NCBI GenBank assembly: GCA_014378225.1
Contig: JACMOA010000187.1
Coordinates: 1-5,074 of the forward strand
DNA length: 5,074 nucleotides
Source: Deinococcales bacterium
Lineage (GTDB): Bacteria > Deinococcota > Deinococci > Deinococcales > Deinococcaceae
Direction of reading: 5' to 3'
The notes under the pieces are model-generated. The model saw nothing but the letters and a program-made list of their open reading frames with translations. It had not been told where the DNA came from and did no database searches. Below, piece after piece: positions 1-5,074 of this stretch. A program made the position numbers and the translations under genes. Positions within the stretch are counted from its first letter, which is position 1. Every line of letters starts with the position of its first letter.

Positions 1-118
1 ATTCTGATAGATATTCACAGCCACTTACCTTTGTAGGCTCCCCTTTTAAAGCTCTGGCTCTATGCCCATCCGCCGTGCCACACCGTTTCATCGGCGCTCG
101 AGCCACGTTGAAAAGGGT

Positions 119-430
119 TTAACGGGCGCTCGAGTCGGGTAGAATTCCCAGTCTCACTTCTTCTTGGTACGTGCGCTCGAGCAGGAATTGTTGAATTAGA
201 ACTTCCTTGCTTGTCCCTTCGCGCCTAGCTAGTTCTTGTAAACGGCGCTCGAGGTTATTGGGCAAATGTAAATTGACCCTGTTTCGCGCTCGAGCCGGAT
301 GATTTCCCCAGCCCCTGACCGCGCCTTCCCAATTGGTTATCTCGGGAATGTCCGAAAAATCAATGTCCTCGTCACGCATTTTAGATAGGCGCTCGAGTTG
401 ATTTTTTTGTTCAGAAGATATTTCTGGCAT
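119..430 (-). CDS. brnA: BrnA-type (CopG/ribbon-helix-helix) antitoxin
   Basis: Predicted 103-residue antitoxin that would bind and neutralise the BrnT toxin encoded just upstream and repress the operon as a DNA-binding dimer, as known for BrnA proteins. The N-terminal half carries the stretch MRDEDIDFSDIPEI (about residues 18-31), which I recognise as characteristic of BrnA. The second half (about 51-92) has a ribbon-helix-helix pattern: a short beta strand RVNLHLP, then helix LERRLQELARREG, a turn TSKE, and helix VLIQQFLLERTYQ. The ATG at 428-430 lies inside the 3' end of the toxin gene (20-base overlap), so translation is probably coupled. A weak AAGGA lies 11 bases before the start. Five CTCGAG copies fall inside this small gene, encoding LE three times, ARA once and SS once. 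Toxin-first, antitoxin-second order is the usual brnTA layout. Confidence 0.82.
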   Translation of the reverse strand: MPEISSEQKNQLERLSKMRDEDIDFSDIPEITNWEGAVRGWGNHPARARNRVNLHLPNNLERRLQELARREGTSKEVLIQQFLLERTYQEEVRLGILPDSSAR

Positions 431-704
431 AAGCTTCTTTTTCCTTGCTCGAGGCCGCTCGAGCCGAGATGATTCTCACTATTTCTTCGTTCTGGTCTGC
501 ATCAAGTCGGTACGTGTGCGCGACCAGTACGACGTACATCCCCTCAATAACTCCGGTAGCTTTCCACCGCTCTTCGTCGTTCTCGAATCTGTCCTGAACC
601 ACCAGCAAATAAGGGTCGTCAAAAACCGCTGAGGCAGCTTGAAAATCAATTCCGTGCTTTGTTTGATTACTCTGATTCTTGGTTTCATCCCATTCAAAGC
701 GCAC
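411..704 (-). CDS. brnT: BrnT-type toxin (RelE-fold ribonuclease, DUF497)
   Basis: Predicted 97-residue type II toxin. BrnT proteins have a RelE-like fold and cleave RNA, arresting growth unless bound by BrnA. The N-terminus RFEWDETKNQSNQTKHGIDF followed by AxxVFDDP (residues 2-31) fits the family pattern FEWDxxKxxxNxxKHGxxFxxAxxVFxDP. The C-terminal part has IVRIISAR (about 75-82), matching the conserved RIISAR segment. The start is GTG at 702-704: it begins the family pattern at the right place and has CGGAGA at 709-714, four bases upstream. The stop overlaps brnA by 20 bases. The phd gene ends 28 bases upstream. After RIISAR, where I recall the family being rich in arginine (about ARKATRRERR), this protein reads ARAASSKEKEAY, and those residues are encoded by two CTCGAG copies 10 bases apart. 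Toxicity of this variant is untested. Confidence 0.85.
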   Translation of the reverse strand: MRFEWDETKNQSNQTKHGIDFQAASAVFDDPYLLVVQDRFENDEERWKATGVIEGMYVVLVAHTYRLDADQNEEIVRIISARAASSKEKEAYARNIF

Positions 705-732
705 AGATTCTCCGTGTCATCACAAGCCTATT

Positions 733-948
733 CTAACGCAGCTCGAGCGGTTCCCATGCGTCGAGTTCAATCACAAACTGTCCTCTAGCACTTCCAGGTT
801 GCCGTTTTTTAAGCGCAGTATCCACAAAAACCAGCCGTCCAATGACCTTACCTTCCTGGGAAAGCAAGATTTCCTCGCCAGAGTGCGCCCGCTCGAGCAA
901 TTGGGCAAACTGGCCTTCAGCTTCACGAAGGGTTACAACCTGAGTCAT
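733..948 (-). CDS. Phd/YefM-family antitoxin, no adjacent cognate toxin
   Basis: Predicted 71-residue antitoxin of the Phd/YefM family, small proteins whose N-terminal domain binds operator DNA and whose C-terminal tail blocks a toxin (often a VapC PIN-domain RNase, Doc or YoeB). The N-terminus MTQVVTLREAEGQFAQLLER, followed by AHSGEEILLSQEGKVIGRLV (residues 1-40), fits the family pattern closely. The tail KKRQPGSARGQF...ELDAWEPLEL resembles the tails of VapC-paired members, which often read RRPGSAKGxxxxxDDFDxPL. It looks nearly full length, perhaps a few residues short at the C-terminus. The usual toxin gene should follow immediately, but brnT begins 28 bases downstream instead, and no PIN-domain gene is present in the window. 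The antitoxin is therefore an orphan, works on a toxin encoded elsewhere, or has been joined to the BrnT/BrnA pair. A -10-like box lies six bases before the ATG. Confidence 0.8.
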   Translation of the reverse strand: MTQVVTLREAEGQFAQLLERAHSGEEILLSQEGKVIGRLVFVDTALKKRQPGSARGQFVIELDAWEPLELR

Positions 949-954
949 GAGTGT

Positions 955-960
955 AGTTTA
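955..960 (-). promoter_or_regulatory. Candidate leaderless -10 box for the phd-like gene
   Basis: On the minus strand TAAACT fits the TANNNT -10 consensus and is separated from the phd ATG (946-948) by exactly six bases. Transcription would then begin at or near the start codon, giving a leaderless mRNA. There is no well-placed Shine-Dalgarno: a GAGG lies 12 bases upstream of the ATG, overlapping this region. No convincing -35 is seen. A CTCGAG copy (967-972) sits between the -10 box and where the -35 would be. If active, this box lets phd-brnT-brnA be expressed separately from the Uma2 gene. Confidence 0.4.
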
Positions 961-974
961 CCTCAGCTCGAGCG

Positions 975-1538
975 TCACCCATCCAACTCAATCCGGTCAT
1001 AAATCTGCTCGAGCGAGACACGTGCTCCAGCACACCCCACCTCGAGCGTACCCTCACTTAGCGTCGCCATCATCCAGCCCTGACCGCTCCGAGTGTAAAC
1101 CTCGAGCAAACGCTGCGCCTGGTGAACCAGAACGTAAGTTTGCAAACTGGGCAGGCGCGTGTACGCTTCAAACTTTTCGCGGCGGTCTATCTGGTCTGTG
1201 CTGGGCGATAAAACCTCGAGCAGAAAACAGGGGAAATACACAACATACGGGTCATTGTCCGATTCAACGCAGGTGATGACCACATCTGGGTAATACATCC
1301 GTCGCACGGCCTCGACCCAAAGTTTAATATTCTCGCTCTGATAGCTGCATTTCTTCGCTCGAGCCTGAGGGCGCAGTGCTTCGGTGAGGTTGTTGACAAT
1401 ATCATTGTGACGGCGGCTAGAACCAGACATGGCGTGAATAAAGCCGTCCAGAAACTCGTGCCGCAAGTCACTATGGCGCTCGAGTTCTAAATACTCCTCG
1501 AGTGTGTAGCGCTGGGGTTTGAAAGCAGGTTGGGTCAT
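975..1538 (-). CDS. Uma2-family protein (PD-(D/E)XK nuclease fold)
   Basis: A 187-residue protein of the Uma2 family (DUF820, PF05685), which has a restriction-endonuclease-like fold. The biological role of the family is not settled. Recognisable elements are the N-terminal YTLEEYLELE (11-20), RHEFLDG with E28, HNDIVNNL (44-51), YYPDVVITC with the candidate metal-binding D85, FLLEVLSPST with the candidate catalytic E108, REKFEAY with K122, and the C-terminal VSLEQIYDRI. Length is typical for the family and the active-site pattern looks intact. The ATG overlaps the stop of an upstream 27-codon ORF as ATGA. The phd gene starts 26 bases after the stop. Seven CTCGAG copies lie in this gene, six of them read as Leu-Glu; the one at 1215 contains the codon for E108. 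Multicopy Uma2 genes are common in Deinococcota and cyanobacteria. Confidence 0.88.
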   Translation of the reverse strand: MTQPAFKPQRYTLEEYLELERHSDLRHEFLDGFIHAMSGSSRRHNDIVNNLTEALRPQARAKKCSYQSENIKLWVEAVRRMYYPDVVITCVESDNDPYVVYFPCFLLEVLSPSTDQIDRREKFEAYTRLPSLQTYVLVHQAQRLLEVYTRSGQGWMMATLSEGTLEVGCAGARVSLEQIYDRIELDG

Positions 1539-1618
1539 GGGTTTGATTTTAACTCGAGCCGCAGCACAATTTCTTTGAATAGCTCAAGTTTTAGATTCCC
1601 ATCAATATGGGCTTGCAT
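1535..1618 (-). CDS. Small 27-codon ORF overlapping the Uma2 gene (ATGA)
   Basis: I do not recognise this peptide. From the ATG at 1616-1618 it reads MQAHIDGNLKLELFKEIVLR and ends LELKSNP, probably an amphipathic helix. Two things argue that it is translated: its stop overlaps the Uma2 start in the sequence ATGA, and a -10-like TACAAT lies exactly six bases upstream of its ATG. A GGAGGT also lies at 1630-1635, 11 bases from the ATG. The same frame stays open upstream and reads plausibly (WLEQEERFGKFWLERR), with another CTCGAG in the LE frame, but it offers only a CTG as a start. The ORF may therefore be the surviving 3' end of a longer, truncated gene, or simply a leader peptide coupling translation to Uma2. 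Confidence 0.4.
   Translation of the reverse strand: MQAHIDGNLKLELFKEIVLRLELKSNP
1546..1551 (-). promoter_or_regulatory. Candidate -10 box for the Uma2 gene
   Basis: TAAAAT on the minus strand differs from TATAAT at one position and ends seven bases before the Uma2 ATG. This is the spacing expected for a leaderless or near-leaderless transcript. It lies inside the small upstream ORF and directly abuts a CTCGAG copy (1553-1558). No clear -35 is seen and the surroundings are AT-rich, so a chance match is possible. Confidence 0.3.
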
Positions 1619-1624
1619 AGAAGT

Positions 1625-1630
1625 ATTGTA
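1625..1630 (-). promoter_or_regulatory. Candidate leaderless -10 box for the small ORF-Uma2 unit
   Basis: TACAAT on the minus strand is one mismatch from TATAAT and is six bases from the ATG at 1618. It partly overlaps a GGAGGT sequence (1630-1635), so the same stretch could instead serve as a ribosome binding site on a longer transcript reading through the bamA terminator. No good -35 is seen at 16-18 bases; CTCGAG (1637-1642) occupies the spacer. Confidence 0.4.
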
Positions 1631-1677
1631 CCTCCGCTCGAGCCAAAATTTCCCAAATCTTTCTTCCTGCTCAAGCC

Positions 1678-1711
1678 ATAAATAAAGCGGCAGGGCCGAA
1701 ACCCCACCGCT
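1678..1711 (-). terminator. Rho-independent terminator of bamA
   Basis: On the minus strand, 16 bases after the bamA stop codon, AGCGGTGGGG pairs with CCCTGCCGCT around the loop TTTCGG. This gives a 10-pair stem with two G-T wobbles (1686-1711), followed by the T-rich TTATTTAT. The loop contains TTCG, a stabilising tetraloop if the flanking T-G pair forms. The outer end of the stem shares bases with a CTCGAG copy (1710-1715). On the plus strand no T-run follows, so it should act only on leftward transcription. It separates bamA from the Uma2/antitoxin cluster. Confidence 0.72.
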
Positions 1712-1727
1712 CGAGCGTGCTTTCAAT

Positions 1728-4301
1728 TTAGAAGAAATTACCGATTCTAAAGCTGAATTTGCCGTTCGGATTGCGCTCACTGAAGGCGTAATCAAAGCGC
1801 AGCGCAGGCAGCAGGAAGGTTCCCAGACCCAGGTTGAGTTGGACTCCCGCGCCCACACCCCATTTGAGCAGGGGGTCCCGCGTGTTTTGCCACGCGTCGC
1901 CCAAATCCGCAAAAGCTACCCCGTAGAGGCCCTGTGCCACCCCCGCGTTGACGTTGAAGTTATAGCGGTACTCGGCGCTCGAGGAGAAGAAATTGGTGCC
2001 AGTAAACTCGCGGGAGTCGTAGCCGTGCAGGGTTTCCGCTGGGGACACGCCCACATCCGAGCCACCCACTGAGAACTGACGGTTGGCAGGAGCGCTGCCA
2101 ATCAGGGTTCCCGCGTTGGCCCGCAGCGCCAGAACCTGCTGGTTCGAGCCATTAGACAGCACGTTCCCGAAGCCCAGGTAGGTGCTGGCCCCGGCAGCTA
2201 ACCGTGTCCAGTTGTAATTGACCGGTCCAGCATTGCCGAAACCAAAACCCAGATTTCCGCTGGCCCGCACGCCAGAGCTGGGGAACTCGGGGTTGTTGGT
2301 GTTGTCAAAGTTCAGTCCGCTCGAGAGCAGGCTGGTGGCTCCGTCCTGTGGCACAAAGCTGCTCACCGAGGGCAAACTGGTAAGCGGTGTGCCGGGTCCC
2401 ACTCGAGGTAACAGGTCAGCGTCGGTGGCGTTCTCGAGCGAGTTCTGGTCTTGGGTATAGCTGGCGCTGATTCCGATAGAAAGAAAATCGCTCAGTGGCC
2501 TCGAGATGCTGAATTCCACTCCGCTCGAGCGCTGGCTGTACTCACGGGCGGGGTCCACTTCCACTCCGGCGGCATCGGTGTTTTTGATTGGCTTGTTTTC
2601 TGCGTCTAGCAGTTTATTGTTGCCCGTAACCGTGGAATATACGCTCGAGGACACCTGGGTTCGCACCGTTTTGAAGTCCAGAAAATCAATATCAAGCCAG
2701 GGAATGGTGTAGCCCAGAGAGCCACTGAGATACTGCCCTGCGTCGTTTTGCTGACCGTTGAGCTGAAAGTTGACCTTATGGGCCAGACCAAACAGGTTGT
2801 TGTACTGAAGCGCCAAATTTCCGCTAAAGCCATCCCGACTGCTCCACTCGAGGCCCGGAAGAAGGTTGAACTTGCTACTGTCCGTCACTTCAAACGAAAC
2901 AATAAGCGAGGTGGGGTCGCTTTCACTGGGGCGAATTTGGGGCGTTCCCAACTGAAACAACTCGGTGCGGAGAACCTTTTCAAGGCCTTGCCGCAACTTG
3001 TCGGTGTTGAACAGCGAGCCTGGAGGGGGAAGTTCGCGCAAGATGATGCGGTTCTGGCTGGTCTGGTTCCCTTTCCATTTCAGCTCGTAAGCCCCAATCT
3101 TGACCTCGCGCAAGTTAAAGGTCAGCACGCCGTCCACAAAGCTAATGGGGTCCGGCTGAGTGGTCAACTCGAATCCCCGGTCCCGGTACGCTTTTTGAAT
3201 ACTGACGTAATCTTCCTGAGCCAGGGAAACGTTGTACTGGTCCCCGGTTTTAAGTCTTAGCAGGGCGGTCAATTCCTGTGCTCCAATCACTCCACTGCCC
3301 TTAACCTCTACCCGCGTAACCTTGCCTGCGGGCAAGGGGCTAAGGGAAAAGCTGACATTGACGGTACCGGGGTCCTCAGGGGTCTGGGTAAAGCTCAAAT
3401 CTACGGTCTGGCCCAGCTGATTGCCAATCAGGCGCAGTTCGTCGCCCAGGGTACGCACGTTGAACAAATCTCCAGCCTTAGCCTTTAGCCCCACCGCTTT
3501 ACCCAACGGCGCAGTATCAATGCTGGCAATTTTGAGTTCGCGGACCTGTACGGTGAGGGTTCCCCCAGCCAGTTCACTGCGAACTACATCTACACCACTA
3601 CCGCTGAAACCCGCGTTAGCGTAAGCCATACCTACGGCCTGCACGGCCCGTTGGTAGGTCAGCACATCAAACTTACCCCCAGCTACCAACGGCCTAAACG
3701 CCGCCTCGAGCGTGGCTTTGGGTACAGCAGCGTTGCCTACGAACACCACTTTGGTCACAGGAACACTTTCCTCGAGAGTATAAGTGACCGTTGCGCCTTC
3801 CTTTTCCTCTACGATGTCGGTAATCACGCGGGGCGCAAAAGGGAAACCCGCGTCGCGGTACGCTTTTGAAAGCAGGTCTTTGGACTGCTCGATGCGGGCT
3901 GCGTTGAGCGTGGTTCCGGCGCTGATGTTGAGATTGCCCTCGAGCGCGGCTTTAATGCGGTCAGGTGGAATAAAGGTGCTCTTGACCACCACGTTTTTGA
4001 TGTCCGCGTTAGGGACTACCGTGATGACCAGCACGGTCTGACCTGCAATATCCTGAAGTTCAGCGCTGGCCCTCTGAAAAAAGCCCTGACTTAAAACCGC
4101 TAGCTGCACGGCAGTCAGGTTAATCTGACTGACCGAATCCCCGATTTGTACCGGAAGATTGACCTTAATCAATCCAGTGAGTAAGTCCGAGGTACCCCGA
4201 ATTTGAATATCTTGTAGGGTTCCCACCGACTGGGCCTGGGCCTGAGAAAGAGCGCCTACCGAAAGAGCCGCCGCCAGAGAAATAAAATTTGAATAGCGCA
4301 T
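1728..4301 (-). CDS. bamA: BamA/Omp85-family outer-membrane protein assembly factor
   Basis: An 857-residue Omp85 protein that would insert beta-barrel proteins into the outer membrane, the core of the BAM machinery; this implies a diderm cell. Residues 1-24 form a signal peptide (basic start, hydrophobic run, AQA cleavage site). Repeating POTRA units follow, at about 25-100, 101-179, 180-256, 257-322, 325-401 and 402-474; a typical one has a KVVFVGN-like first strand, a helix pair and an AYRDAGF-type motif. From about 476 the protein alternates short strands as a beta-barrel and ends FSFRIGNFF, an outer-membrane signal with terminal Phe. It has six POTRA units against five in E. coli BamA. 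The conserved loop-6 motif, usually (V/I/L)RG(F/Y), reads LHGY here with His759. The gene stands alone with its own terminator. A TamA-like role cannot be excluded, but length and domain number favour BamA. Confidence 0.9.
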   Translation of the reverse strand: MRYSNFISLAAALSVGALSQAQAQSVGTLQDIQIRGTSDLLTGLIKVNLPVQIGDSVSQINLTAVQLAVLSQGFFQRASAELQDIAGQTVLVITVVPNADIKNVVVKSTFIPPDRIKAALEGNLNISAGTTLNAARIEQSKDLLSKAYRDAGFPFAPRVITDIVEEKEGATVTYTLEESVPVTKVVFVGNAAVPKATLEAAFRPLVAGGKFDVLTYQRAVQAVGMAYANAGFSGSGVDVVRSELAGGTLTVQVRELKIASIDTAPLGKAVGLKAKAGDLFNVRTLGDELRLIGNQLGQTVDLSFTQTPEDPGTVNVSFSLSPLPAGKVTRVEVKGSGVIGAQELTALLRLKTGDQYNVSLAQEDYVSIQKAYRDRGFELTTQPDPISFVDGVLTFNLREVKIGAYELKWKGNQTSQNRIILRELPPPGSLFNTDKLRQGLEKVLRTELFQLGTPQIRPSESDPTSLIVSFEVTDSSKFNLLPGLEWSSRDGFSGNLALQYNNLFGLAHKVNFQLNGQQNDAGQYLSGSLGYTIPWLDIDFLDFKTVRTQVSSSVYSTVTGNNKLLDAENKPIKNTDAAGVEVDPAREYSQRSSGVEFSISRPLSDFLSIGISASYTQDQNSLENATDADLLPRVGPGTPLTSLPSVSSFVPQDGATSLLSSGLNFDNTNNPEFPSSGVRASGNLGFGFGNAGPVNYNWTRLAAGASTYLGFGNVLSNGSNQQVLALRANAGTLIGSAPANRQFSVGGSDVGVSPAETLHGYDSREFTGTNFFSSSAEYRYNFNVNAGVAQGLYGVAFADLGDAWQNTRDPLLKWGVGAGVQLNLGLGTFLLPALRFDYAFSERNPNGKFSFRIGNFF

Positions 4302-4309
4302 TGGAAGTT

Positions 4310-4315
4310 ATTGTA
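4310..4315 (-). promoter_or_regulatory. Candidate -10 box for bamA
   Basis: TACAAT on the minus strand is one mismatch from TATAAT and ends eight bases before the bamA ATG (4299-4301). The sequence before the ATG (AACTTCCA) has no Shine-Dalgarno, which fits a leaderless or near-leaderless mRNA. No clear -35 is seen 16-18 bases upstream. Confidence 0.45.
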
Positions 4316-4396
4316 ACGGGTTTAAGGCTGACGCGAGCATACGAGCTAATTAAGAAGGATTAGGATTGGATGGGGAAAACGGGTGAAGGGTTAGAA

Positions 4397-4440
4397 ATTC
4401 GAGCGCCGATATTACCGAAACGGTGGTCAAGGCGCTGAAT
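4397..4440. other. Intergenic hairpin 1, bulged 10-pair stem with inner stem
   Basis: ATTC and AGCGCC (4397-4400 and 4402-4407, with a single bulged G at 4401) pair with GGCGCT and GAAT (4431-4440). Inside, ACCG (4414-4417) pairs with CGGT (4421-4424) around AAA, separated from the outer stem by a symmetric six-by-six internal loop. It lies between two divergent genes in 287 non-coding bases. The bulged G falls in TTCGAGC, a near-copy of the CTCGAG repeat. It could be a structured leader RNA of either gene or a protein binding site. Confidence 0.5.
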
Positions 4441-4467
4441 AAGTAGACAAAGTGGAAAGTATTACCT

Positions 4468-4532
4468 CTCCGACTGTTTTGGATAGGCCCGATAGGTGCC
4501 GCTCTATACAAAATAGTCGGAGGCGTTTCTTT
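4468..4532 (+). terminator. Intergenic hairpin 2 followed by a T-rich tract; possible attenuator
   Basis: An imperfect inverted repeat pairs 4468-4486 with 4504-4522. The arms are 19 bases, with 17 Watson-Crick pairs, one G-T wobble and one G-A mismatch, around a 17-base loop. The base of the stem (CTCCGACT / AGTCGGAG) is GC-rich. On the plus strand it is followed after three bases by TTTCTTTCTT, so it has the form of a rightward terminator. No T-run follows on the minus strand. No gene lies upstream on the plus strand, so it either ends a short leader or small RNA or controls entry into the ABC-F gene 57 bases downstream of the tract. It may instead be an operator or a remnant of a small inverted-repeat element; no target duplication is visible. 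Confidence 0.45.
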
Positions 4533-4576
4533 CTTACCCTCGAGCGAAGCTCCCCTCATTCCACCTCCAGAACTTG

Positions 4577-4582
4577 TACCCT
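4577..4582 (+). promoter_or_regulatory. Candidate leaderless -10 box for the ABC-F gene
   Basis: TACCCT fits TANNNT and is followed by exactly six bases before the ATG at 4589, the spacing expected if transcription starts at the A of the start codon. No Shine-Dalgarno lies before this ATG. The ACCTCC at 4562-4567 has the complement of a Shine-Dalgarno and would not work as one on this strand. No clear -35 is visible. Confidence 0.4.
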
Positions 4583-4588
4583 ATATCC

Positions 4589-5074
4589 ATGTTGGTTGCA
4601 CTCAGGAATGTGGATAAGTATTACGGAAGTCAAAAGGTGCTCGAGGGGGTCAATTTCTCGCTCGAGCCGGGACAGCGCGTGGCGCTGGTGGGCCGCAATG
4701 GGGCGGGCAAAAGCACCCTGCTGCGCCTACTTACAAGAGAAGAAGAACCTCTGGGTGGACAGGTGCTGCGTAGCAAAGGTGTGCAGATTGGTCTGCTGCG
4801 CCAGGACCCGGTGTTTCCCGCCAACTCTACCATTCAAGACGTGCTCGAGCGGGCTTTTCACGAACTGGACAGCTTGGAAGACGACCTCGAGCGCCTCAAC
4901 ATTAAGGTTTCACAGGACCCAGAAAATATAGCGCTGCTGGAAGAGTACAACGCGGCGCTCGAGCATTATCAGTTGCGTGGAGGTTATCAGAGGCGGAGTC
5001 GGCTCGAGGGTGTGCTGCTGGCTTTCGGGTTCCGGGGCCGCGAGTTTGAACAGGTCTCAAAGCTGTCCGGCGGC
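4589..5074 (+). CDS. ABC-F family ATPase, 5' part (runs off the window)
   Basis: The first 162 residues of a protein with the ABC-F layout: two ABC ATPase domains and no membrane segments; only part of the first domain is seen. ABC-F proteins bind the ribosome and act in translation (EttA, Uup, YbiT types) or protect it from antibiotics. Visible elements are an aromatic Y12, Walker A GRNGAGKST (35-43), Q-loop Q72 in LLRQDP, a charged helical insert of the arm/tooth type (about 84-130), the GGY...RLEGVLLAFGF segment (131-148) and the ABC signature beginning LSGG (159-162), where the window ends. The ATG at 4589 starts the usual first strand (LVALRNVDKYYG). Six CTCGAG copies all read as Leu-Glu. 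The subgroup cannot be decided from this part. The gene is divergent from bamA. Confidence 0.92.
   Translation, partial: MLVALRNVDKYYGSQKVLEGVNFSLEPGQRVALVGRNGAGKSTLLRLLTREEEPLGGQVLRSKGVQIGLLRQDPVFPANSTIQDVLERAFHELDSLEDDLERLNIKVSQDPENIALLEEYNAALEHYQLRGGYQRRSRLEGVLLAFGFRGREFEQVSKLSGG

Follow-up and report, generated by a model that had tools for sequence, protein, structure and literature searches.

The closest described kind of repeat is the highly iterated palindrome HIP1 (GCGATCGC) of cyanobacteria together with the alternate HIPs; most cyanobacterial HIPs occur around 500-2,500 times per million bases, and every cyanobacterial genome with HIP had a candidate methyltransferase (Elhai 2015, PMC4390886, section 2.5). 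The hexamer CTCGAG, analysed here in a window (i.e., the whole stretch of 5,074 nucleotides from a Deinococcales bacterium) and in related genomes, resembles these repeats as a GC-rich palindrome (67% GC; 75% for the equally palindromic octamer GCTCGAGC) with extreme over-representation, lineage variants and a proposed methyltransferase link. Unlike them, it belongs to another phylum and is another word, reaches ca. 7,600 copies per million bases in its own genome (one per ca. 132 bases; the octamer ca. 1,640), has a core common to the order, stands among mostly depleted palindromes and comes with no shared methyltransferase found in the four families searched. HIP1 itself is not what is seen, as an 86 kb sample of the bacterium's own genome (G000), which belongs to the order of Thermus, yielded 0 CGATCG. 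The restriction-modification systems XhoI and PaeR7I recognise CTCGAG, and methyltransferases related to XhoI-linked ones occur in the order, but here the sites are enriched rather than avoided and the rich genomes yielded no nuclease of the XhoI family. DNA uptake sequences of Neisseriaceae and Pasteurellaceae (non-palindromic words of 9-12 bases) likewise come in thousands of copies, genes included, with lineage dialects, whereas the present word is palindromic and several times denser. An orphan methyltransferase of Nocardia is reported to recognise the same six bases, with motif clusters by dnaA (PMC4752239), whereas in the rich genomes CTCGAG is found throughout the sampled DNA.

Within the window, the preliminary description had counted 39 CTCGAG sites and 15 full GCTCGAGC octamers, and had put the former at about 30 times random expectation. 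A recount gave exactly these numbers (first site at 97-102, last at 5003-5008), and the mononucleotide expectation of 1.42 yields an observed/expected ratio (O/E) of 27.5; under a first-order Markov model, the hexamer reaches an O/E of 26 and the octamer one of 113. Copies also lie in unrelated genes and between genes, as had been claimed, with six hosts (RHH, BrnT, the 71-residue ORF, Uma2, BamA and ABC ATPase) and 6 sites outside them. The genes and sites (the latter without strand) are:
119..430, minus strand, RHH (CopG-type) protein gene (PF01402), likely partner of the BrnT-family gene; 5 sites
411..704, minus strand, BrnT-family toxin gene (PF04365); 2 sites
733..948, minus strand, 71-residue ORF, antitoxin-like by eye; 2 sites (counted within 740-948)
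975..1538, minus strand, Uma2-family protein gene (PF05685); 7 sites
1728..4301, minus strand, BamA/Omp85-type outer membrane protein gene (PF07244, PF08479, relatives); 11 sites
4574..5074, plus strand, ABC ATPase gene (PF00005), runs off the window; 6 sites
97..102, CTCGAG, in GCTCGAGC
129..134, CTCGAG
176..181, CTCGAG, in GCTCGAGC
248..253, CTCGAG
289..294, CTCGAG, in GCTCGAGC
392..397, CTCGAG
448..453, CTCGAG
458..463, CTCGAG, in GCTCGAGC
742..747, CTCGAG, in GCTCGAGC
892..897, CTCGAG, in GCTCGAGC
967..972, CTCGAG, in GCTCGAGC, outside listed genes
1008..1013, CTCGAG, in GCTCGAGC
1041..1046, CTCGAG
1101..1106, CTCGAG
1215..1220, CTCGAG
1358..1363, CTCGAG, in GCTCGAGC
1479..1484, CTCGAG
1497..1502, CTCGAG
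1553..1558, CTCGAG, outside listed genes
1637..1642, CTCGAG, in GCTCGAGC, outside listed genes
1710..1715, CTCGAG, in GCTCGAGC, outside listed genes
1978..1983, CTCGAG
2320..2325, CTCGAG
2402..2407, CTCGAG
2433..2438, CTCGAG
2500..2505, CTCGAG
2524..2529, CTCGAG, in GCTCGAGC
2644..2649, CTCGAG
2847..2852, CTCGAG
3705..3710, CTCGAG
3771..3776, CTCGAG
3939..3944, CTCGAG
4539..4544, CTCGAG, outside listed genes
4640..4645, CTCGAG
4661..4666, CTCGAG, in GCTCGAGC
4844..4849, CTCGAG, in GCTCGAGC
4886..4891, CTCGAG
4958..4963, CTCGAG, in GCTCGAGC
5003..5008, CTCGAG

The genome-wide and Markov counts that the preliminary description had proposed bear it out. The bacterium's own genome (1.94 Mb) contains 14,690 CTCGAG against 2 GAGCTC, and 3,176 GCTCGAGC against a single copy of the octamer word reversed. 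In an 86 kb sample (20 contigs; all Markov figures come from samples of genomes), O/E was 29.8 at order 1 and 15.1 at order 2, falling to ca. 1 at the highest order, since occurrences of the 4- and 5-letter subwords come mostly from the CTCGAG sites themselves. It is the hexamer, not the octamer, that forms the unit here. The comparison with related genomes, likewise proposed, gave 21,868-28,178 CTCGAG in each of five relatives, of which one is a congener and four come from another family; together with the bacterium's own genome these show a spacing of about one site per 130-170 letters and first-order O/E of 15-54. The genomes form a graded series from ca. 0.3 to 7.6 CTCGAG per kb, G003 being poor in the word and of the same family, and the core recurs across the order with lineage-specific flanks, e.g., CCTCGAGG in Thermus; the range of enrichment presumably reaches Meiothermus as well. 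Locus L235 holds 55 CTCGAG against 4 GAGCTC in 19.5 kb, while L120 (G054) and L234 (G068), N throughout, were left out of the counts. We judge an assembly artefact excluded, as the word occurs in distinct genomes from two families and shows structure by reading frame and among orthologues.

Across six rich genomes CTCGAG falls in every one of the three frames, and it is about as dense outside long ORFs as inside them (in G000, 8.05 per kb outside versus 7.41 inside ORFs of at least 120 codons). The sites exceed synonymous codon shuffles 9-18-fold in frames 1 and 2 and 3-9-fold in frame 0, which rules out codon bias as the cause, as the preliminary description had argued. Given that the word lies far above Markov expectation genome-wide, is an outlier among palindromes, goes beyond codon bias and recurs in relatives, its description as a HIP1-like highly iterated palindrome with core CTCGAG is supported. 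The effect extends to the proteome: Leu-Glu pairs stand at 2.1-2.6 times expectation in the six genomes and Glu-Leu pairs at 0.77-0.98, with 62-84% of Leu-Glu pairs written CTCGAG versus 11 of 157 in the CTCGAG-poor G003, where Leu-Glu O/E is 0.98. This doubling of Leu-Glu, but not of Glu-Leu, is a direct measure of how far a DNA-level demand can bend protein composition.

We tentatively consider, with confidence somewhat short of even, that CTCGAG is a HIP-like genome-wide mark, probably written by DNA methyltransferases, read by a DNA-repair or self-recognition system and kept by selection. In favour are the genome-wide density, the spread over frames and beyond long ORFs, the Leu-Glu excess, the nearly even cover, the conserved orthologous sites with few single-base variants, the core recurring with lineage flanks, the depletion of most other palindromes and its correlation with CTCGAG O/E, and the larger share of rich genomes with C5- and D12-type methyltransferases. 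CTCGAG is possibly a methylation target that these enzymes would modify, and such a mark would need to be about as dense as the Dam sites of E. coli (one GATC per ca. 240 bases), which a six-base site could achieve only if selection added copies. Site loss would be selected against, so that variants would be purged and synonymous, even non-synonymous, gains kept. The reading step, the least certain, might be strand choice in mismatch repair or the distinction of own from foreign DNA; in the latter variant, the cells would seem to restrict most other palindromes. A bolder and rather doubtful version holds that the Thermus-Deinococcus lineage has an ancestral system which reads CTCGAG and maintains it as a six-base self mark at a fixed density, ca. 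1 per 150 bases, with other palindromes purged, flank dialects separating lineages and extreme lineages rewriting more than 1% of protein positions; we know of no DNA word with a stronger pull on a proteome than this would imply, if true. An independent, denser HIP-like case in another phylum amounts to a comparative test of why HIP1 exists, resting on the graded genome series, the CTCGAG-poor G003 of the same family and the lineage flanks.

The methyltransferase survey found no enzyme common to all rich genomes in PF01555 (14 genomes) or in PF00145, PF07669 and PF02086 (61 genomes each), and none of these four families in the bacterium's own genome, which is 59% complete. C5-type enzymes were present in 10 of 14 rich genomes versus 6 of 47 others and D12-type enzymes in 10 of 14 versus 14 of 47 (post hoc Fisher tests that ignore kinship; three D12 matches were read as sequence), and this richness may reflect only restriction load. 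A D12 enzyme that G001 and G019 have in common at 75% identity was rejected as the shared methyltransferase, its family being very large (at least 8,000 candidates match). The methyltransferases linked to CTCGAG belong to unrelated kinds, with two beside XhoI-like genes in the order and a cytosine-5 activity at CTCGAG in Halorubrum (533 of 560 sites; PMC8112702), so that a single homologue common to all rich genomes need not be expected. Three of the six g11 genomes in the set carry a 51-52% identical relative of an XhoI-linked methyltransferase without an XhoI-family nuclease. Counting against methylation, Thermus and g16 genomes, which carry the close relatives of the g9-type XhoI-linked methyltransferase, have no more than 1.8 times as many CTCGAG as GAGCTC. 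The XhoI-family nuclease PF04555 was found in 4 of 61 genomes, none of them CTCGAG-rich (the bacterium's own genome being 59% complete), which led us to reject XhoI self-protection and agrees with the earlier argument that an active CTCGAG-cutting enzyme would make such abundance costly. In g9, the genus with XhoI nucleases, CTCGAG is lower in three carriers than in three other members, a difference that is uninformative because GAGCTC is lower by a similar factor.

It is unlikely, though worth weighing, that CTCGAG is instead bound by a conserved protein acting as a homodimer (a nucleoid, segregation or repair factor) with no methylation involved. The palindrome, the same core with differing flanks across the order, the almost uniform distribution over 300 kb (variance/mean 0.87-1.50) and the shortage of site pairs below ca. 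20 bases (263 at 6-20 bases versus 475-604 in 18 later full 15-base bins) would suit such a protein, but site-pair distances showed neither regular nor helical spacing (inter-site distance CV 0.90-1.17 in six rich genomes) and six bases are short for a specific binder.

Quite unlikely, in our view, is a DNA-uptake or transformation signal like the Neisseria DUS, accumulating through biased uptake and recombination. Thousands of dispersed copies, dialect-like flanks, the Leu-Glu effect and an even cover suggesting that site-free DNA is rare in rich genomes are consistent with it, as is the rarity of the word in one sampled Thermus phage (CCTCGAGG 0, CTCGAG 6 in 50 kb), set beside two Thermus genomes, neither known as its host, in which 40 kb contain 41 CCTCGAGG. 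However, one copy per ca. 130 bases gives little selectivity, a palindromic hexamer is unlike the DUS/USS form, and DNA uptake by Thermus is reportedly free of sequence preference. In viral contigs (80 loci, among the matches listed), the densest locus above 5 kb, L331, lacked depletion of other palindromes (0.94), and the short loci L272 and L278 had it (0.53); a phage search with a g11 stretch and plasmid searches gave nothing useful.

CTCGAG sites are conserved between most orthologue pairs (15 genome pairs, 3 of them without an orthologous segment), with identity in 164 of 448 pooled comparisons. Single-base variants make up 24 (8.5%) of the 284 non-identical partners versus 30.7% for other hexamers, and 211 of the 284 differ at 2-4 positions. 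Insertion of CTCGAG as a unit was rejected, since partners align ungapped and only 2 of 197 comparisons were lost to gaps. A mutation or repair bias turning near-sites into CTCGAG without benefit to the cell (a ratchet of very-short-patch or mismatch repair, such as the HIP1 model invokes) would explain the scarce single-base variants among orthologues, the amino-acid effect and the spread in coding and non-coding DNA alike. We nevertheless regard it as distinctly unlikely, as non-shared partners usually show 2-4 differences instead of a change at a single preferred base, and near-site words are undepleted genome-wide (ca. 1.0-1.55 of Markov expectation in six rich genomes, 0.89 in G003; hand sums), an observation that argues against the mismatch-repair ratchet in the form given in PMC4390886. 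Variants at positions 1, 2 and 3 in G000 number 76, 58 and 133 (hand sums), the centre not being rarest; the HIP1 trend, in which deviations are scarce in the centre and frequent at the outer positions, is thus not seen in this genome, and it is no requirement for alternate HIPs.

An excess at other GC-rich palindromes, which would have counted against the original claim, was not seen: the other 63 palindromic hexamers together stand at 0.28-0.53 of expectation, AGCGCT (1.6-3.4 times) being the main mild exception, and in G000 24 of 57 tested fall below one tenth. CTCGAG O/E rises as other-palindrome O/E falls (post hoc Spearman -0.81, n = 25; -0.64, n = 19, without six extremes; palindrome ratios computed with masking in the six extreme genomes and without it in the others), and in two Thermus samples the surviving TCGA lies mostly inside CCTCGAGG (20 of 20; 21 of 28). 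All three observations would fit CTCGAG as the palindrome that escapes a dense set of restriction systems, a leftover rather than a favoured word, which may explain part of the background. As the whole cause it is improbable, since it predicts O/E near 1, not 15-54, and unchanged amino acids, so that the Leu-Glu excess refutes it as a full account.

Hardly credible are Holliday-junction cutting sites of RuvC, for although CTC^G is present on both strands of CTCGAG and Deinococcus RuvC prefers (G/C)TC^(G/C), such words are not enriched outside the palindrome (with CTCGAG masked, CTCG 0.77-1.46 and GTCG 0.65-1.03 of expectation in six rich genomes), depletion of GTCGAC is seen in each of these six, CTCGAG occurs just 8 times in 50 kb of the D. 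radiodurans plasmid MP1, and the Thermus enzyme prefers (A/T)TT(G/C) (both preferences from PMC9601230). The flanks of CTCGAG show a mild preference for G before the hexamer.

The window (contig C54 of G000, an assembly of 1.94 Mb that is 59% complete) contains exactly the 39 CTCGAG hexamers and 15 GCTCGAGC octamers counted in the preliminary description, the hexamers extending from 97-102 to 5003-5008, against a mononucleotide expectation of 1.42. That the copies occur in unrelated genes and also between genes was equally borne out: the host genes belong by Pfam to the RHH family, the BrnT family, Uma2, BamA/Omp85 and the ABC ATPases, and six sites lie outside both these genes and the short open reading frame listed below. 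The closest species-named relative of the BamA protein is from Deinococcus pimensis (43% identical). Two features at the start of the window are as follows.

119-948, reverse strand: overlapping genes for an RHH protein and a BrnT-family toxin, likely a toxin-antitoxin pair
733-948: open reading frame (ORF) of 71 residues, antitoxin-like by eye, with two CTCGAG sites

The whole-genome count that had been proposed as a check gave 14,690 CTCGAG in G000 (7.6 per kb) versus two copies of the control word GAGCTC, and 3,176 copies of GCTCGAGC versus one of the same word read backwards. Comparison with related species (111 genomes of the phylum, all from one order) revealed five further extreme cases, 91-94% complete and with 21,868-28,178 CTCGAG versus 4-25 GAGCTC, i.e., G001, which shares a genus with G000, and four members of family f5 (G007, G011, G015 and G019). 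Within the family of G000, G002 carries 13,552 CTCGAG in 3.8 Mb, and the 2.3 Mb of G003 contain only 683, outnumbered there by GAGCTC (1,525). Counts per genome were 3,329-11,982 (ca. 1.4-3.1 sites per kb) in genus g11, which we take to be Meiothermus, and 1,443-2,513 in Thermus. CTCGAG is a real, extreme and order-wide highly iterated palindrome (HIP), a fresh variant within the HIP kind.

Markov statistics, computed from samples of 81-100 kb per genome, gave first-order observed/expected ratios for CTCGAG of 29.8 (G000), 44.2 (G001), 53.8 (G007), 36.4 (G011), 15.5 (G015) and 34.8 (G019), and second-order ratios of 11.6-15.6 in these six rich genomes. An equal level of many other GC-rich palindromes would have refuted the idea of a HIP1-like palindrome; the outcome was the opposite, because other palindromic hexamers are depleted in all six. 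With expectations computed after masking CTCGAG sites, the 63 others summed to 0.32, 0.43, 0.53, 0.34, 0.28 and 0.47 of expectation (same order of genomes), and to 1.00 in the CTCGAG-poor G003. Less than half of the expectation was reached by 42 of 57 palindromes in G000 (those with an expectation of at least 5, CTCGAG included) versus 175 of 1,964 non-palindromes, and by 33 of 64 versus 195 of 2,016 in G007. The main mild exception is AGCGCT, which in all six exceeds its expected number 1.6-3.4 times. CTCGAG enrichment and other-palindrome ratios were anticorrelated over 25 sampled genomes (rho -0.81), and also over the 19 left after removing the six extremes (rho -0.64), both post hoc and uncorrected for kinship. 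Among other words, GATC is almost absent from the G000 sample L010-L029 (7 seen, 175 expected), as is GGCC from G007, G011 and G019 (3, 0 and 7, versus 300-338 expected). The non-palindromic GAGCCC falls below one tenth of expectation in the G000, G001, G007 and G015 samples, a pattern resembling that of a non-palindromic restriction target common to these four.

Codon bias had been dismissed as a cause, and rightly, as sites exceed synonymous codon shuffles in all frames. ORFs of at least 120 codons in G000 hold 350, 86 and 111 sites in frames 0, 1 and 2, versus 76.9, 6.0 and 6.2 after shuffling, and across the six rich genomes the sites outnumbered those of the shuffles 3.4-9.2 times in frame 0 and 9-18 times in each of the two other frames. 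Site densities per kb inside/outside such ORFs were 7.41/8.05 in G000 and 5.26/7.66, 5.58/5.41, 6.09/4.68, 5.94/8.56 and 6.60/7.50 in the other five. Protein composition itself is bent by CTCGAG: the six rich genomes contain 2.1-2.6 times as many Leu-Glu pairs as expected (an excess of ca. 254 pairs in 20,543 codons of G000) while Glu-Leu pairs stay at 0.77-0.98 of expectation, the values for G003 being 0.98 and 1.01; in the window alone (1,211 codons) Leu-Glu stands at 2.63, yet Glu-Leu also at 1.50. CTCGAG encodes 350 of 417 Leu-Glu pairs in G000 and a share of 0.62-0.84 across the six, versus 11 of 157 in G003.

The sites are spread rather evenly. A 300 kb stretch of G007 contains 1,706 of them, with a variance/mean of 0.87-1.50 for windows of 0.5 to 10 kb and 11 gaps longer than 1 kb; four inspected gap regions hold genes with a GC of 0.37-0.43, whose translations appear by eye to be pilin-like, O-antigen-ligase-like and helicase-like. 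Over 5,566 sites, pairs were deficient solely below ca. 20 bases and no clear periodicity of 10-11 bases was seen.

Conservation was assessed in 46 gene pairs (219-8,220 nt each), reciprocal-best orthologous segments that came from 12 of the 15 possible pairings of the rich genomes; a shared site was counted once per genome. Orthologous CTCGAG was identical in 164 of 448 site comparisons. Site identity versus that of other hexamers was 0.76 versus 0.39 (G007-G011), 0.39 versus 0.06 (G000-G001) and, between different families, 0.35 versus 0.04 (G000-G007); weak pairs were G001-G019 (0.14 versus 0.14), G007-G015 (0.18 versus 0.12) and G011-G015 (one site). Such identity is partly a common preference at conserved Leu-Glu pairs, not inheritance. 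Non-identical partners were one base off in 24 of 284 cases (8.5%), versus 30.7% for other hexamers. Relative to expectation, the nine single-base variant classes together came to ca. 1.0-1.55 in the rich genomes and to 0.89 in G003: near-sites are not depleted and there is no large pool of decayed copies.

Flanks vary between lineages. CCTCGAGG contains 20 of 20 and 21 of 22 CTCGAG in two Thermus samples and 186 of 387 in G002, two f2 genomes favour GCTCGAGC (25 of 38 in G058, 12 of 22 in G004), and the g11 genome G059 has both octamers (49 and 50 of 268). A common core with varied flanks suggests that the recogniser is old and that its contacts beyond the core have drifted. In Thermus samples L088 and L131, 20 of 20 and 21 of 28 TCGA fall in CCTCGAGG and are scarce outside; a putative second adenine methylase guarding GAGG could spare this context from a TCGA nuclease.

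HIPs have been described and tied to methyltransferases, and a mismatch-repair ratchet proposed, by Elhai (2015, PMC4390886), whose main text mentions neither CTCGAG nor Thermus, Meiothermus or Deinococcus. Elsewhere, an orphan CTCGAG methyltransferase with motif clusters near dnaA is described in Nocardia (PMC4752239), and one source gives CTCGAG cytosine methylation for Halorubrum and YCGCGR as the D. radiodurans methylation motif (PMC8112702). No report of CTCGAG over-representation was found among the titles and abstract openings listed in the openly licensed literature on HIPs, on Thermus, Meiothermus and Deinococcus palindromes or on orphan methyltransferases.

As regards METHYLTRANSFERASES, the XhoI-family nuclease (PF04555) occurs in four of 61 genomes, none of them CTCGAG-rich. 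These XhoI-like nucleases (loci L114, L115, L116 and L117) adjoin two methyltransferase kinds without close likeness: one of ca. 350 residues (G017, G042, G048), whose relatives (57-66% identical) come from Thermus and g16 genomes, in none of which CTCGAG exceeds 1.8 times GAGCTC, and one of 583 residues (G008), for which strong relatives were confined to the g11 genomes G014, G025 and G037. The G008 nuclease copy is interrupted by stop codons. No methyltransferase common to all rich genomes was seen in PF01555 (14 genomes), PF00145, PF07669 or PF02086 (61 each). Taking as rich the 14 of 61 genomes with CTCGAG/GAGCTC above 4, C5 enzymes were present in 10 of 14 versus 6 of 47 others and D12 enzymes in 10 of 14 versus 14 of 47 (post hoc, uncorrected for kinship), a surplus that may reflect restriction load. 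That CTCGAG is a methyl mark is therefore offered tentatively, as a best guess at the mechanism and not as a result, given this possible origin of the surplus and no common enzyme being seen. At L061:17851-19949 of G007, a gene of 308 residues that lacks a clear family (weak DUF5817) directly adjoins one for a D12 methyltransferase, and the two are possibly a modification-linked pair. Two short viral stretches, L272 and L278, contain 24 and 14 CTCGAG and zero GAGCTC, with other palindromes at 0.53 of expectation, and are possibly phages of CTCGAG-rich hosts.
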